Part shown: positions 20,733-34,018 of the stretch, one piece after another
Numbering within the stretch: the stretch's first letter is position 1
How the letters are laid out: each line of letters starts with the position of its first letter
From: a virus
Virus record (IMG/VR): IMGVR_UViG_3300038701_003554
Coordinates: 1-34,459 of that record
Direction: 5' to 3' (one strand)
Length of the DNA stretch: 34,459 nucleotides
The notes under the pieces: model-generated
Told to the model about the DNA's origin: nothing
The model's input: the letters and a program-made list of their open reading frames with translations, nothing else
Database searches by the model: none
Program-made: the position numbers and the translations under genes

Positions 20733-21719
20733 ATGACCAAAAACAGATATTATGCACTAGATGCGTGGCGAGGCATAGCGGCACTCTTTATAGTGCTGTT
20801 GCATAAGTCGCATATTTTTGTTCCTGAACTGGCCGAGGAAAGGTTTGTAAAGAATACATTTCTTTTTGTGGATTTCTTTTTTGTGCTTTCGGGTTTTGTT
20901 ATAGCACACACTTATCAGCAAAGACTTTTGATAGGCGAGGTTGTACTAACTAATTTCGTGTGGCGTAGGTTTTTAAGGCTATGGCCTTTGCATATATTCA
21001 CAATGTTCTTAATAATTTTATATGAGTTGGATTTTGAGCTTCTGAAGTTTATACATCAGTTTTTCCTGCTGCATGCAGTGGTGTTCTCTGGTAATTTTAT
21101 AGGGTGGAATGATCCTAGTTGGTCAATCAGCGCAGAGTTTTACACCTACTTGATATTTGGAGTCTTGTTCCTGAGTTGCAAACCAAATAGTGTTCTTTTG
21201 ATACTTGCTTCTTTGGCAATTTGTATCGGCATTGCGGTTTATAGTAAAACTGGTGACCAATTACTTGGGATTAATACTACAGGCAAGTTTGGTTTATTGC
21301 GTTGCATTGCTGGTTTTGCAATGGGCGTGCTTCTATTTAACACTTTATCCAAGGTACATAGTTTGCTTGAAAGGGTTCCGGCGAACATTCTTGAGATTAC
21401 CGTAATTGCAGCTTTAATATTGTTTATAACCTATCTTGGGCAGGGGCGAATAAGCGTGATAGCGCCATTCTTTTTCTTTTGGTTTGTGGCTGTTTTCTCT
21501 ATGCAACGTGGTTCTATTAGCCAAATATTTGGTAGTTATCCCTTCCAGTTACTGGGAGTTCTTTCCTATAGTATTTATATGACACATATCTTTGTAATGA
21601 GTATACTGGGTGAATTACTTCCAGAAGGTATTTTTCCATTGCTGGCCGGTGTTTGTGGCGTAATAGTATTTTCGTACCTAACTCATAGATTCATAGAAAC
21701 ACCTTTTTATAAACGGTGA
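20733..21719 (+). CDS. acyltransferase 3 family membrane protein (OafA-like)
   Basis: A 328-residue multi-pass inner-membrane acyltransferase. The start (NRYYALDAWRGIAALFIVLLHKSHIF) has the R-G-x-A-A and His positions of acyltransferase-3 enzymes. LFVDFFFVLSGFVIAHTY and RRFLRLWPLHIFTMF follow, then about eight more hydrophobic helices, ending with a TM segment and SYLTHRFIETPFYKR. These enzymes O-acetylate surface polysaccharides, so lysogenic conversion that masks the phage receptor is likely. It has its own promoter-like sequence and terminator, is more AT-rich than the tail genes, and has no role in morphogenesis, so it is a typical moron. Confidence 0.85.
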   Translation: MTKNRYYALDAWRGIAALFIVLLHKSHIFVPELAEERFVKNTFLFVDFFFVLSGFVIAHTYQQRLLIGEVVLTNFVWRRFLRLWPLHIFTMFLIILYELDFELLKFIHQFFLLHAVVFSGNFIGWNDPSWSISAEFYTYLIFGVLFLSCKPNSVLLILASLAICIGIAVYSKTGDQLLGINTTGKFGLLRCIAGFAMGVLLFNTLSKVHSLLERVPANILEITVIAALILFITYLGQGRISVIAPFFFFWFVAVFSMQRGSISQIFGSYPFQLLGVLSYSIYMTHIFVMSILGELLPEGIFPLLAGVCGVIVFSYLTHRFIETPFYKR

Positions 21720-22904: not shown

Positions 22905-23017
22905 AGCCAATTTCACACTACATACCAAGCATTCCAAAGTGGATAAACAGAAAAACGATTGCCCGTGCATTTGCGTTGCTGGCAATCGTTTTCGCTGGGC
23001 TTGCAATATTTAGTTAG
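22901..23017 (+). CDS. 38-residue membrane peptide overlapping holin end
   Basis: A short frame starting at ATGA with the holin stop. It encodes 38 residues: a basic segment (PKWINRKTIARAF) and one hydrophobic helix (ALLAIVFAGLAIF). The coupling and the positive-then-hydrophobic layout favour a real peptide. However, a perfect 12-bp inverted repeat that looks like a terminator lies inside it, and the next gene is convergent, so expression may be low. It could be a lysis accessory. Confidence 0.45.
   Translation: MKPISHYIPSIPKWINRKTIARAFALLAIVFAGLAIFS
22952..22992. terminator. bidirectional terminator-like hairpin
   Basis: AAAACGATTGCC (22952-22963) and GGCAATCGTTTT (22981-22992) are perfect 12-bp complements around a 17-base loop. 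The A-tract and T-tract flanks suit termination in both directions. It sits where the rightward lysis genes meet the leftward MazG/protease genes. Confidence 0.65.
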
Positions 23018-23544
23018 AATTTCTTCCCACCGGCCGCTGCGCGGTTTGCGGGTTTGTGATCTGCGCGCTTGGCATTGAACGCTATTTTTTCATCGATGGC
23101 ACCTTGAAGATCTAGATCAAAGCGAAGTGCATATCTTGAGGCAGTGGCTAGTGCCAGTTCATAGAAATTTGAACATACGTTGGTTACCATATCATAAAGT
23201 AGGGCGGCGCGATTATCACCAGAGGCAATATCATCTGATTCTGCATACATAAGATAGCCTTCTTGATCAAACGCTCTTTTTGTTCCACCTAGAAAATCAC
23301 ACACACGGATTACAAAATCCGCCAATTCAACTTCTTCCATCTTGCGATGTGGTAGCTTGTCATCCATAAGATCTTTGCGCAAACCTTCCATAGCTTCGGC
23401 CAGTTCACTGATGATTAGCATCTTTAGTTGCTTCTGGTTGCGCTTTAGCGGCTCACCGGTGTTGATATCATGCCACCAACCACCAGCCTTTGCAGCGCCG
23501 TGGCATGTTTCAATAAGGGCTGGTACATCGAGTTTGTATGTCAT
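23014..23544 (-). CDS. MazG-like nucleotide pyrophosphohydrolase
   Basis: A 176-residue protein with a MazG-type helical core: KMLIISELAEAMEGLRKDL then MEEVELADFVIRVCDFLGG, giving the E-x(2-3)-E and E-x(2-3)-D metal-binding pattern. Members hydrolyse (d)NTPs to monophosphates; phage versions can adjust nucleotide or alarmone pools. The rest (residues 85-165) is helical and less conserved. AAGGAAAC precedes the ATG. It is the second gene of a leftward pair with the lipoprotein protease, separated by 10 bases. Confidence 0.78.
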   Translation of the reverse strand: MTYKLDVPALIETCHGAAKAGGWWHDINTGEPLKRNQKQLKMLIISELAEAMEGLRKDLMDDKLPHRKMEEVELADFVIRVCDFLGGTKRAFDQEGYLMYAESDDIASGDNRAALLYDMVTNVCSNFYELALATASRYALRFDLDLQGAIDEKIAFNAKRADHKPANRAAAGGKKF

Positions 23545-24307: not shown

Positions 24308-25519
24308 TTAGTCTTTCTTGTTTTCCCTGTCAATTAGGTTGCGTGTCATTTCCGTGACATGAGATGCACTTTTTGACATTGCATCCTTTATTTCACTTTC
24401 TACTAAATGAACATATTTTTGTGTAGTCTTAACATCTGAATGACCAAGTAAATTCTTGGCTGCAATCAGGTTTCCTGTTGTTCTCAATGCGTCTGTTGCA
24501 GCAGTGTGTCTTATCAAGTGTGTTAGCTGCCCACGCTGCTTCTTAATGCCTGCCTTTTCCATGGATGCAATAAAAGCTTTTTTATGATCGCCTAAAGGAA
24601 CTCGTTTCTGGCTTCTGTTGATATAGGTAAACACCTCGCCTTTACTATCACAACCGCGCTTAACACCGGCCGCAAGCAGAACATTTAAAACTTCATCAGA
24701 AATAGGAAGTCGTATTACTTTCTGATTACGGTCTTTTCTACTTGTTTTTACAGAAAATGATATCGTCATACTATCCCAACAAATATCCTCTTTCCTCAAA
24801 TTCTTAACATTTCCCCACCTCAACCCCATAAGCCGTTGCAATAGCACAGGAAGCTTCAAATAGTCAGGCAATGTATTAAAGTATATGATTTGCTTTTCTG
24901 GTGATATTGAAGCCTCAAGTGATCGGCATGGTTTCAATACTTTAACAACTTGTTTTATGTCTGCGCTGGAAGACTGCACACCAAGAACATCTTTTGCATA
25001 TCGATTGATTGCGGAAAACACATAAATTTCTTTTTTAATTGAAGAATCACTCACACACCTTGCATTTTCTTTGGGCTTCTTATTCTTTGCATTATGCGCT
25101 ACTACTTTGCAGGTTCTACGATATTCAATATATTGCCGAATGTGAAAATCTTCTACCATTTCAAGGCTTACTGCTGAACCTAAGATCTTTTCTAGAAATT
25201 CACCTAAATAAACCATAGAACGAATCACATTGTCTTTGTTAACAATTTGTGAGCCGTTTGTTTTCCAATAACTGTTGAACACTTTTTCTAAGTTAACCGA
25301 AGGCCGTTTATTGAAGTATTTACCTTCTAAAACTTGATTCCTGATATTAGCAACTTGTCTTTCTGCAAACTCAAGATCGCTTGTCTCAAGGCATTTTCGT
25401 ACACGTGGAATACCTTTAATGTTGATATCGCAATGATAATATTCAGAATCTGGTCGAACAATAACACCAGAACCTTTGCGTGGTTTTGCTAACTTTAATT
25501 TAGTATACTTTCTTTCCAT
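24308..25519 (-). CDS. int: tyrosine recombinase, phage integrase
   Basis: A 403-residue site-specific recombinase. Arm-binding and core-binding N-terminal regions are followed by a catalytic domain with Arg in QRLMGLRWGNVKNL, Lys in VKTSRKDRNQKV, H-x-x-R in LTHLIRHTAATDAL, His in AKNLLGHSDVKTTQ and the nucleophile Tyr in KYVHLVE. All catalytic positions are present. It ends next to attP in a tRNA-Thr copy and overlaps the excisionase gene by 25 bases. It is the last gene of a leftward operon and probably integrates the phage into the host tRNA-Thr gene. Confidence 0.92.
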   Translation of the reverse strand: MERKYTKLKLAKPRKGSGVIVRPDSEYYHCDINIKGIPRVRKCLETSDLEFAERQVANIRNQVLEGKYFNKRPSVNLEKVFNSYWKTNGSQIVNKDNVIRSMVYLGEFLEKILGSAVSLEMVEDFHIRQYIEYRRTCKVVAHNAKNKKPKENARCVSDSSIKKEIYVFSAINRYAKDVLGVQSSSADIKQVVKVLKPCRSLEASISPEKQIIYFNTLPDYLKLPVLLQRLMGLRWGNVKNLRKEDICWDSMTISFSVKTSRKDRNQKVIRLPISDEVLNVLLAAGVKRGCDSKGEVFTYINRSQKRVPLGDHKKAFIASMEKAGIKKQRGQLTHLIRHTAATDALRTTGNLIAAKNLLGHSDVKTTQKYVHLVESEIKDAMSKSASHVTEMTRNLIDRENKKD

Positions 25520-26599: not shown

Positions 26600-27097
26600 T
26601 TAGCCCTCCTTTTTGATGGTGCGAACACCTGCAAAATTTGCAGCCGTGATTACTAAATTCTTTTCCATTTCATCAATAAGATTGGCCGCGCGATTGTATC
26701 CAATTTTAAGGTGACGCTGGACAAAGCTAGTGGTGGCTTTATTTTCTTCTCTAACCAGTTCAACCGCCTTTTGATAAAGTGGATCAGGCTGTTCTGGTTT
26801 TTCGCCACTATCTTCTTTTTTCTTTTCGATATACTCTTCAAGAGGTGTTAGAGGAGTCATGCCAAGAGCTTTCTTATAGGTATCAAGTAAGTAATCTTGT
26901 TCTTCTGCGTCAGAAGCATCCATTTTACGGATTTTTAAAATCTCGCGCATGGTTTTAGTATCAAAGCCATTGCCTTTGGCTTCGGCAAACACCTCTTTGA
27001 TATTTTGCGCAATATCTCCTTTTTCTTCTTCAAGGCGCTCTATGCGTTCAATATAGCTGCGTAAATATTCACCTGAAACGCCACCAACATTGACCAT
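26600..27097 (-). CDS. GapR (DUF2312) domain fused to FtsK gamma winged-helix domain
   Basis: A 165-residue protein with two recognisable DNA-binding parts. Residues about 6-80 match GapR: GEYLRSYIERIERLEEEKGD, IKEVFAEAKGNGFDTKTMRE and LKIRKMDASDAEEQDYLLDTYKKALGM; GapR binds overtwisted, AT-rich DNA in alphaproteobacteria. After a charged linker (EKKKEDSGEKPEQ), residues about 106-163 match FtsK gamma: DPLYQKAVELVREENKATTS, VQRHLKIGYNRAANLIDEME and a final GVRTI. Gamma domains read KOPS sites and activate XerD. AGGGG precedes the ATG. It lies in the operon with xis and int. The combined function is unknown. Confidence 0.88.
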   Translation of the reverse strand: MVNVGGVSGEYLRSYIERIERLEEEKGDIAQNIKEVFAEAKGNGFDTKTMREILKIRKMDASDAEEQDYLLDTYKKALGMTPLTPLEEYIEKKKEDSGEKPEQPDPLYQKAVELVREENKATTSFVQRHLKIGYNRAANLIDEMEKNLVITAANFAGVRTIKKEG

Positions 27098-31088: not shown

Positions 31089-32123
31089 ATGGCCACATTT
31101 GTTAAGCGAAAACGCCGGGGGAAGGATGTTATTTGCGCGACAATTAGGATTGCCGGCTACCCAACTGAAAGTGCCACATTCACCAAAAAGCGTGCGGCCG
31201 TTGAATGGGCAACTGAAATAGAAAATGAAATGCGAATGGGTAGGTATTTGAAAAACAGCATTGCCAAGCAACGTAGTTTTTCAGAAATGATCGATCGCTA
31301 TATCGAATTGGTGCTGTTTACCAAATCGAGCAAAAAGAGATTTATTCAGCAGCAACATGTGCAGCTGCTTTGGTGGAAAAAACATTTAGGAGAACACACC
31401 TTGTTTAACGTTACCAGTTCAGAAATTGTGCAGTGCAGGGATATCTTGCGAAAGACACGCGCACCAGGAACGGTGAACTGTTATCTGGCGGTGTTGTCGC
31501 ATGTGTATAGCAAGGCATGTAAGGAATGGAAGTGGTTAAATGTTAACCCGATGGATGATGTGGAAAAGTTCAAAGAGCCACGCGGCATTGTGCGCTTTCT
31601 TTCTGATAAAGAATTGGATCGCTTATTACGTGCTCTTGAAAACAGCAATAACGACATTGCTAAAATGGTGGTGATGTTGTCGCTTTCCACTGGTGCCAGA
31701 AAATCAGAAGTGACCGGTTTGAAATGGGAAGATTACGATGCCGATCGAAACATCATCATTGTGCAAGAAACCAAAAACGGTGAACGCCGGCAACTGCCAC
31801 TGCACGGAAAATGCAGAGAGTGGTTCAAGGCATATGCTAAAGGGCGCAACAGGGGTGGATACGTCTTTCCATCCAAATATAAACGCCAGCCATACGATGT
31901 GGATCGAGCATGGAGAAAGATCGTAAAGGCTGCCAGGCTGCGTGATTTTCGCTTCCACGATTTACGCCATACGGCAGCTAGTTTCATGGCGATGCAGAAT
32001 GTTCCTACCACTACGATTGCAGAAGTGTTGGGGCATAAAACATTAGCGATGGTGAAGCGCTATGCCCACCTTTCAGAAGGGCATGTGAGCGATGCAGTAA
32101 AGAAAATGAATAGTAAAATTTAA
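31089..32123 (+). CDS. second tyrosine recombinase
   Basis: A 344-residue integrase-family enzyme, distinct from the one next to attP. The N-terminus (KRKRRGKDVICATIRIAGYP) is an arm-binding-like domain. The catalytic domain has Arg in LSTGARKSEVTGL, Lys in VQETKNGERRQLPL, H-x-x-R in RFHDLRHTAASFM, His in LGHKTLAMV and Tyr in KRYAHLSEGH, all in place, so it should be active. No tRNA copy or excisionase is nearby. Its ATG has only an A-rich leader; a strong AGGAGGAG is about 65 bases upstream. Roles could include genome dimer resolution or an alternative att site. Confidence 0.85.
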   Translation: MATFVKRKRRGKDVICATIRIAGYPTESATFTKKRAAVEWATEIENEMRMGRYLKNSIAKQRSFSEMIDRYIELVLFTKSSKKRFIQQQHVQLLWWKKHLGEHTLFNVTSSEIVQCRDILRKTRAPGTVNCYLAVLSHVYSKACKEWKWLNVNPMDDVEKFKEPRGIVRFLSDKELDRLLRALENSNNDIAKMVVMLSLSTGARKSEVTGLKWEDYDADRNIIIVQETKNGERRQLPLHGKCREWFKAYAKGRNRGGYVFPSKYKRQPYDVDRAWRKIVKAARLRDFRFHDLRHTAASFMAMQNVPTTTIAEVLGHKTLAMVKRYAHLSEGHVSDAVKKMNSKI

Positions 32124-32139: not shown

Positions 32140-32580
32140 ATGGATCATTTTGGAATTGGAAATGCAATAAAAGGTATGACATTTGCTTATTTTCAGCAAT
32201 CGCGGCGAACTGGCAGAACTATGTCAATTGTAGAGAGTGTTAAAGATGGAGATAGGATTGTTTTTACTAATCGCCTTGAGGCAAAGCGGGTTGAACGCTT
32301 ATGTAAAGAGCGTGGTGTAAAAATTAGATGTATTGTTGTTTCTCCATTCAATCCTACTGGTCTGATGCGCGATGGCATTAGTCATGGCCGTACTATCTTT
32401 GATCATGATTGGGTTAAGGAGTTTTACTTTAATGCCATTCACAGAGCCGAAAAAGAGCTTGATACATTGGAGCGTGAAACTAGTGGTTATGGTGTTAAAC
32501 ATCGAGAAACTAAGCGCCAAGCGGAAGAGAATCAGAGGTGGGGTTATTACTCTGAAGCAGCAAATCTAGATAAATTCTAA
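32140..32580 (+). CDS. hypothetical phage protein
   Basis: A 146-residue protein I do not assign. SRRTGRTMSIVESVKDGDRIVFTNRLEAKRVERLCKERGVKIRCIVVSPFNP followed by ISHGRTIFDHDWVKEFYFNAIHRAEKELDTLE suggests a small alpha/beta nucleotide- or nucleic-acid-binding fold. Similar short proteins occur in packaging-proximal regions of tailed phages. TGAGG lies at 7-8 bases from the ATG. It starts 16 bases after the second recombinase. Confidence 0.6.
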   Translation: MDHFGIGNAIKGMTFAYFQQSRRTGRTMSIVESVKDGDRIVFTNRLEAKRVERLCKERGVKIRCIVVSPFNPTGLMRDGISHGRTIFDHDWVKEFYFNAIHRAEKELDTLERETSGYGVKHRETKRQAEENQRWGYYSEAANLDKF

Positions 32581-32692
32581 AGCGTTACTAGCGACACGAA
32601 TGTTGTGAGTAGCAAAGTGGCAACTTTTCTGGCTAAATTAGCTGCTTTGTATTAGTATGCTGTCTCTCATAATAAAAAGGAACATAAGTAAA

Positions 32693-33406
32693 ATGAGAGT
32701 TACCGAGAAAATTAGGCTGATAGGCAGCATAGCGACTGAAATGGCTGACCGTTATACTATCGTGCAAATGAAAATTTTCTTCAAAGAGTTTAGTGTTGAA
32801 TTTCAGTTTGATCAACAAAGTTACAGCTCTTATGCGGAAGCGGTTTTTGATAATATTAAAGACCTTACTCCTAAAGTTCTAAAGAAGATTGCAGATGAGT
32901 TAGATCTATCAACAGAAATTATATTAACCGAACCCCCAGCTAATTGGGAAGAGAAAGACACAGTCAAAGCATTTATTAGTCACACTTCAAAAGATAAGGA
33001 GACTGCGGCAAAAATAAGGGAGTATTTAAAGCCATTTAATATAGATGGTTTTGTCGCTCACGAAGATATTGTTCCATCAAAAGAGTGGCAAGTAGAAATA
33101 GAAAAGGCACTAAAAACGATGGATTTCTTTATTTCAGTTCATACTGAAGGCTTTAAGGAAAGTATATGGTGCCAACAAGAGGTTGGATTCGCAGCATGTC
33201 GAAATGTGGTAATTATACCTATAAAATTTAAAGAAGATCCAACAGGTTTTATTGGAAAGATCCATGCTATCGTTAGAGGTAAAAAGAATGCCCCGCAAGT
33301 GATAGATGCAATATTAGACATTCTTAGAGAAGATAAAAGAACAGCTTCAATGTATAATGAAAGGATAGACCCACACTATACCGAGTACCATGAATTACCT
33401 TTTTAG
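32693..33406 (+). CDS. TIR-domain protein
   Basis: A 237-residue protein. The N-terminal 85 residues (EKIRLIGSIATEMADRYTIVQMKIFFKEF) are helical and unrecognised. The rest is a TIR domain: KAFISHTSKDKETAAKIREYL, a BB-loop-like region GFVAHEDIVPSKEW, DFFISVHTEGFKES, and the W-C-x-x-E motif (WCQQEVGFA) with the Glu of NAD-consuming TIRs. It is AT-rich compared with the tail genes and is followed by two terminators, as expected for an acquired cargo gene. Prophage-encoded defence against other phages is the likely role, by inference. ATG 32693 has an AAAGGA site; an ATG 36 bases upstream is possible. Confidence 0.85.
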   Translation: MRVTEKIRLIGSIATEMADRYTIVQMKIFFKEFSVEFQFDQQSYSSYAEAVFDNIKDLTPKVLKKIADELDLSTEIILTEPPANWEEKDTVKAFISHTSKDKETAAKIREYLKPFNIDGFVAHEDIVPSKEWQVEIEKALKTMDFFISVHTEGFKESIWCQQEVGFAACRNVVIIPIKFKEDPTGFIGKIHAIVRGKKNAPQVIDAILDILREDKRTASMYNERIDPHYTEYHELPF

Positions 33407-33505
33407 AAATAAATAAAAATTAAACTTTACAAACTTAACAAAAAGTGGCATCATTTTTCATAAGCTGAGAGCATCAACGCTTAAAGCCCAAAACTGCTTA
33501 AAACA

Positions 33506-33539
33506 CCTCGCAAAGATTTATATCTTGCGGGGTTTTTTT
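33506..33539 (+). terminator. intrinsic terminator
   Basis: CCTCGCAAAGAT (33506-33517) pairs with ATCTTGCGGGG (33522-33532), with one bulge and a short loop, followed by seven T. It closes the early rightward unit after the TIR gene. Confidence 0.85.
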
Positions 33540-33586: not shown

Positions 33587-33620
33587 GGCGGTGGCTGCTA
33601 AGTGCAGCCCCGCCTTTTTT
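33587..33620 (+). terminator. second intrinsic terminator
   Basis: GGCGG-T-GGCTGC (33587-33598) pairs with GCAGCC-CCGCC (33604-33614) around TAAGT, followed by TTTTTT. This very stable stem has one bulged base. With the first terminator it isolates the early region from the packaging end. Confidence 0.88.
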
Positions 33621-33631
33621 ATTGGTAGGTT

Positions 33632-34018
33632 ATGCGCCCTTATCCTGTACAAGAAATAAAGAATCTTGATGGTGAAGTTGTCATTACACAAGCAGCACAG
33701 AATAGAGGACATGCAATAGAGTTGTTGGTTGCTGCTGGTCGTACTGACTTTACCAATCTTAATTTGGCGGGTGTTGATTTTCGCGGCCGTGGTCTTGCTG
33801 GTGCGGACTTCACAGGAAGTAAACTAAATGGTTGCGATATGCGAGGCACGAAACGTGAAGGTGCTAAGTTTGATAATACAGATATCACGCGCACCAGCGG
33901 CCTTGAAGAGATTGTGGCAGAGCGTGCAGCAATCATTTGGTCAGGGCTTGACTTGTCATCAGAAGAAAGTGTGAGTGTGCAGTATGCCGTGGAAGTCGAA
34001 GAAGCCGTGCAAAGCTAG
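33632..34018 (+). CDS. pentapeptide-repeat protein
   Basis: A 128-residue protein. Residues about 38-92 show tandem A(D/N)LXX-like units: FTNLNLAGVDFRGRGLAGADF and TGSKLNGCDMRGTKREGAKFDNTDI, roughly nine five-residue coils, flanked by helical ends. Such repeats form a right-handed square helix that can mimic DNA. The role here is unknown. The ATG follows a weak TAGGT site directly after the second terminator. Its end overlaps the HNH gene. Confidence 0.72.
   Translation: MRPYPVQEIKNLDGEVVITQAAQNRGHAIELLVAAGRTDFTNLNLAGVDFRGRGLAGADFTGSKLNGCDMRGTKREGAKFDNTDITRTSGLEEIVAERAAIIWSGLDLSSEESVSVQYAVEVEEAVQS

Follow-up and report, generated by a model that had tools for sequence, protein, structure and literature searches.

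A phage-encoded single-gene TIR protein with an SSB-like C-terminal tip conserved among its close homologues

To our knowledge, triggers are known for only a few single-gene bacterial TIR proteins and TIR systems. That of Thoeris is a capsid protein. SpbK, from the Bacillus subtilis element ICEBs1, is like the protein reported here in being a single gene on a mobile element that encodes an N-terminal domain and a TIR NADase with a conserved Glu; SpbK acts through direct binding of its N-terminal domain to the portal protein YonE (PMC11984713, PMC12847820), and composite active sites form on clustering (PMC12847820). Bacterial effectors with death-like or effector-associated domains carry a small helical, death-fold-like domain ahead of TIR, in the order of MyD88 (PMC8195603), as is predicted for the protein reported here. 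A further point of comparison is SSB, whose C-terminal tip (DDDIPF in Escherichia coli) mediates docking to over 14 partners, the partner pocket reading the carboxylate of the terminal Phe (PMC5872125). SSB triggers Retron-Eco8 (PMC12887533) and, reportedly, AbpAB (PMC10732053), which already places this area of phage biology under immune watch.

The phage protein analyzed here differs from each of these. Its N-terminal domain has no detectable relation to that of SpbK, the hosts are different, and it ends in an SSB-like tip, of which the available SpbK text reports none (PMC11984713, PMC12847820); the PADLOC spbK profile matches weakly (3.3e-05) and only over residues 42 to 117, around the start of TIR. 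The TIR domain is related by profile to Thoeris ThsB/ThcB4, but the N-terminal domain is different, the score is below the curated cut-off, and a cyclase role is not indicated; a ThsA-type effector is not a conserved neighbor in ~20 loci, and the two genes adjoining the TIR gene match no such family. With bacterial SSB (PF00436) the protein shares the DD[IL]PF-type tip, its free Phe carboxylate, and the flexible linker before it. In contrast to SSB, the tip sits on a TIR protein without an OB fold (PF00436 matched none of nine members). Unlike the death-like domain effectors (PMC8195603), no STAND, MoxR, or vWA partner was seen and there is one domain copy per genome, the likeness resting on the predicted fold and not on a sequence link to bDLD1-3. 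Retron-Eco8 and AbpAB, also linked to SSB, respond to phage SSB; the available text on them reports no SSB-mimicking tail. A known named system was also considered and set aside, since the Pfam, PHROGs, NCBIfam, and PADLOC matches are at the TIR level only.

The window, i.e., the whole stretch of DNA analyzed, is a 34.5-kb virus record (34,459 nucleotides) and is the genome of a temperate phage. The small and large terminase subunits come first at the left end, with portal, head-maturation protease, and head genes also on the left; tail genes, two integrases, and a repressor region are found elsewhere. The two tyrosine integrases are different (24308 to 25519, minus strand, PF00589, 3.9e-14; 31089 to 32123, plus strand, 1.7e-34). 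An O-acetyltransferase gene follows the tail genes (20733 to 21719; phrog_3333, 4.7e-45), with a likely role in surface modification, and near the middle integrase lie genes for a MazG-type pyrophosphatase-like protein (23014 to 23544, minus strand) and a short FtsK-like protein (26600 to 27097, minus strand). The order at the right end is integrase, a 146-aa open reading frame (ORF), the TIR gene, a pentapeptide-repeat protein gene (33632 to 34018), and an HNH endonuclease gene that overlaps the latter. The features around the TIR gene are as follows:

31089 to 32123, plus strand: tyrosine integrase upstream of the TIR gene (PF00589, 1.7e-34)
32140 to 32580, plus strand: 146-aa ORF between integrase and TIR gene, no family match, not conserved with TIR elsewhere
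32677 to 32682, plus strand: AAGGAA, Shine-Dalgarno-like sequence 10 nt 5′ of the ATG at 32693
32693 to 33406, plus strand: TIR gene, 237 aa (translation, Pfam TIR_2 at 2.3e-16, full-length homologues)
33505 to 33539, plus strand: intrinsic terminator 3′ of the TIR gene (fold −18.7 kcal/mol, z = −4.5)
33587 to 33618, plus strand: second terminator-like hairpin with a T run (consensus scan, core stem 33593 to 33609)

An earlier note, written from the sequence, had assigned the gene a cargo position before two terminators. This description stands: the integrase lies upstream, the first downstream hairpin folds with a z of −4.5, and a second site was found by a consensus scan whose site count in the TIR region is no higher than in shuffles. 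The gene is also AT-rich, as expected for cargo, its GC content of 35.6% (43% for the window) falling in the lowest 2% of equal-sized windows. Position and low GC thus fit a cargo gene. A close phage relative (L007) has a portal protein 87% identical to that of the window, and its 22-kb record stops short of the TIR region.

The start of the TIR gene was set at the ATG at 32693 because AAGGAA precedes it and homologues begin at the same Met; an alternative, longer ORF of the same gene starts at 32657. The encoded protein divides as follows:

32693 to 32947, plus strand: N-terminal helical domain, residues 1 to 85, death-fold-like in prediction (AlphaFold2 models, homologue conservation)
32960 to 33331, plus strand: TIR domain, residues 90 to 213 (Pfam and structure match)
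33179 to 33181, plus strand: codon of Glu163, putative NADase catalytic residue of W-C-Q-Q-E (invariant in nine homologues)
33383 to 33403, plus strand: C-terminal tip EYHELPF, residues 231 to 237, SSB-Ct-like ([IL]PF invariant in 17/17; pLDDT under 50, free tail)

Both the proposed TIR identity and the catalytic-type Glu in W-C-x-x-E were borne out. Pfam TIR_2 (PF13676) matches residues 94 to 193 (E = 2.3e-16; 60.8 bits against a cut-off of 28), and there are profile matches to AbTIR and BtTir. The AlphaFold2 model, built from an alignment of only nine sequences with a mean pLDDT of 83.6, has four helices in its N-terminal domain, followed by the TIR domain and, at the C terminus, a disordered tip, and its TIR part is nearest to NADase TIRs (SPARTA, Z 16.2; SARM1, Z 15.0; AbTir, Z 13.6). 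Nine homologues show no variation at W159, Q162, or E163 of the motif W159-C-Q-Q-E163. Membership of this family makes NADase activity likely. A nucleoside deoxyribosyltransferase identity was rejected: the fold is common to TIR, yet the sequence profiles and the W-x-x-x-E motif favor TIR.

The first 85 or so residues are helical in the AlphaFold2 model, as had been anticipated (helices at residues 3 to 20, 23 to 31, 47 to 55, and 60 to 69). The profile search of this domain suggested in the earlier note returned no convincing Pfam, NCBIfam, or PADLOC family match, and a sequence search against the PDB found nothing. "Unrecognized" is thus correct as regards known families, but the domain is no singleton: its conservation extends to homologues from two phyla, and it defines a wider family, the members of which show 25 to 35% identity to the window's domain. 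Modeled alone (pLDDT 76), the domain has almost exclusively death-fold structural neighbors, with FADD DD (Z 6.9) and ankyrin DD (6.5 and 6.1) as the nearest solved folds among the best VIA-align matches, MyD88/IRAK DD and TRADD at 5.0 each, and caspase-8 DED and Apaf-1 CARD lower. These Z values, up to 6.9 and thus under 8, fall short of the range in which the tool is confident for helical bundles, and with scores this weak for a small helical bundle we grade the predicted death-fold as likely. If this is right, the domain order would be that of MyD88, death-fold then TIR, and the domain would serve in assembly and not as a ligand sensor. The sensor role previously proposed for it would then be less apt, as the prediction, with its weak Z, resembles a death-fold assembly domain and no obvious sensor. 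Each of 12 genomes carries a single copy of the domain, and no homotypic partner with the same domain was found in them.

Homologues sharing the N-terminal domain occur in two phyla, Pseudomonadota and Bacteroidota, on plasmids, in prophages, on viral contigs, and in restriction loci. Full-length relatives were found in Devosia, Novosphingobium, Salinarimonas, a Bacteroidota MAG, and further genomes, as well as on Klebsiella plasmids. The Devosia homologue lies within a prophage-like region whose head-maturation protease is related to that of the window; homologues detected by alignment scan on viral contigs adjoin a gpA-type terminase, a P4-type primase, and an integrase. At two loci (L080 and L085) the SSB-tipped TIR gene lies inside a type I restriction operon, between hsdS and hsdR, and at another (L081) it adjoins an Eco57I-type methylase. 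Some family members adjoin housekeeping genes, with no defense signs there. No relatives were detected in 50,697 phage records or in E. coli genomes. No partner gene is conserved across ~20 homologous loci, distant loci having no common neighbor, which supports the single-gene status suggested in the earlier note and indicates that the protein probably works alone.

The SSB-like C-terminal tip, absent from the earlier note, is the most informative feature of the protein. All 17 intact close homologues end in [I/L]-P-F (Ile in 11, Leu in 6), and 16 have an acidic residue at −4 or −5, the typical tip being DD[I/L]PF. Asp or Glu occupies position −4 in 88% of the members and −5 in the same proportion (Asp in 13/17 and 14/17, respectively). 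The linker before the tip varies in length and sequence, positions −12 to −24 being variable. Owing to their common descent, these are not 17 independent events; they do, however, form 11 clusters at ~70% identity with a median pairwise identity of 42%, so that the tip has persisted through the divergence of most of the protein. EYHELPF, the tip encoded in the window, is not as acidic as DDDIPF and is a weaker match than the tips of most relatives, and the Novosphingobium tip, VSAIPF, has no acid, whereas a Salinarimonas homologue (L004) carries the exact DDDIPF.

Two apparent exceptions are damaged genes. A transposase gene splits one of them (L039); in the other (L034) the frame is broken, and LDDEIPF, identical to the SSB tip of that genome, lies just past the break, in another frame on the same strand. 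The broken L034 gene is on the reverse strand, at about 1266 to 1511. More distant members lack the tip (L018 and L019, from Actinobacteria, and L072). Among the 1,761 ORFs of the loci, 25 end in [ILV]PF, and all but one belong to this TIR family, including the detached tail of L034; an [IL]PF ending occurs in 1 of ~1,725 other ORFs examined and in none of ~19 unrelated complete TIR_2 proteins sampled. A search of 12 genomes with the exact DNA pattern GAYGAY(ATN/CTN)CCNTTYTRA gave 13 matches, mostly in SSB genes plus three of these TIR genes, and none with the reversed pattern as a control; the matches in L097 and L102 yielded no ORF of at least 30 aa. In 9 of 10 genomes, all but that of Devosia, the tip has the same residue at the Ile/Leu position as the SSB of that genome, an agreement that follows phylogeny.

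Similar endings are also found on other proteins. L024 (7626 to 8648) and L041 encode TIR proteins with a different N-terminal domain, marked by a DNW(N/S)GG motif, and end in VDDLPF; together with L075 they are TIRs of different N-terminal domain ending in DDLPF or DDNTPF. L035, L073, and L020 have an N-terminal domain similar to that of this group and no tip, and a non-TIR hypothetical gene on a Megaira plasmid (L020, 8056 to 8532) ends in DDLIPF. A tree of the TIR domains did not separate one from several origins of the tip. Its presence on TIRs with different N-terminal domains raises the possibility of a targeting module that can be transferred.

Taken together, a solo, defense-type TIR NADase with a tip that mimics SSB is the reading we put forward, at about even chances as a whole. 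Its parts differ in strength. A role in defense is plausible by family and likely; the strong sequence identity with a well-studied SSB peptide makes binding of the tip to SSB-interacting proteins somewhat probable; and a contribution of this contact to sensing is a tentative suggestion. The protein would consist of three modules: a death-fold-like domain for assembly at the N terminus, a TIR NADase, and a flexible C terminus that copies the SSB tip. The tip would dock in the SSB-tip pocket of at least one SSB-interacting protein, candidates being ExoI, RecO, PriA, the Pol III chi subunit, primase, or a phage equivalent, and would thereby place the TIR protein at replication or repair complexes. 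An infecting phage that disturbs, displaces, or over-recruits that machinery would cause the bound TIR proteins to cluster, upon which the N-terminal and TIR domains would self-assemble into composite active sites; the NAD+ would be destroyed and the infection stopped abortively, protecting the host of the prophage.

Other explanations account for parts of these data. The N-terminal domain, and not the tip, could directly bind a phage structural protein and so cluster the TIRs, as SpbK does with the portal YonE (PMC11984713, PMC12847820), with the tip as an accessory or localization signal. The diversity of the N-terminal domain among members would suit such a role, but the tip, which varies least within the C-terminal region, would be left unexplained and the spbK profile match is weak; we regard this reading as rather unlikely. 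Alternatively, the tail could be a switch in which the tip binds the protein's own N-terminal domain or a neighboring subunit and keeps the protein inactive until SSB tips massed on phage single-stranded DNA displace it and free TIR. The tendency of the tip to match the host SSB and the role of SSB as a known trigger of other defense systems are consistent with this. Docking of the tip on its own protein was not seen in the AlphaFold2 monomer, where residues 233 to 237 are left undocked with a pLDDT under 50, and we regard a switch as improbable.

A signaling TIR (cyclase) of a split Thoeris-like system, with the effector elsewhere in the host, is more doubtful still: the TIR region does resemble ThsB/ThcB4 profiles, but ThcB4 scores 46.2 bits against a cut-off of 220, the TIR residues alone match, and there is no conserved effector gene nearby in ~20 loci. 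Equally remote is a function other than defense, in which the phage TIR and SSB mimicry act on host NAD or replication during lytic growth. The gene is indeed located in a phage genome and such a tip could sequester SSB-interacting proteins; against this, homologues are also carried by plasmids and chromosomes and lie within type I restriction operons, and the gene is AT-rich and placed as cargo would be, with the integrase ahead of it and the terminators behind.

We found no description of an SSB-tipped TIR protein in the open-access full-text literature. As to how single-gene TIR proteins sense infection, the conserved SSB tip points to a specific class of partner and makes the question testable by one three-residue deletion. 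It is possible, and we propose it tentatively, that a TIR NADase tethered by SSB-tail mimicry guards replication and repair proteins, so that one mobile gene senses many unrelated phages. If true, immune proteins would be able to borrow the cell's own replication docking code, and sensing through the effect of a phage on the replication machinery would be a new mode of immune sensing.
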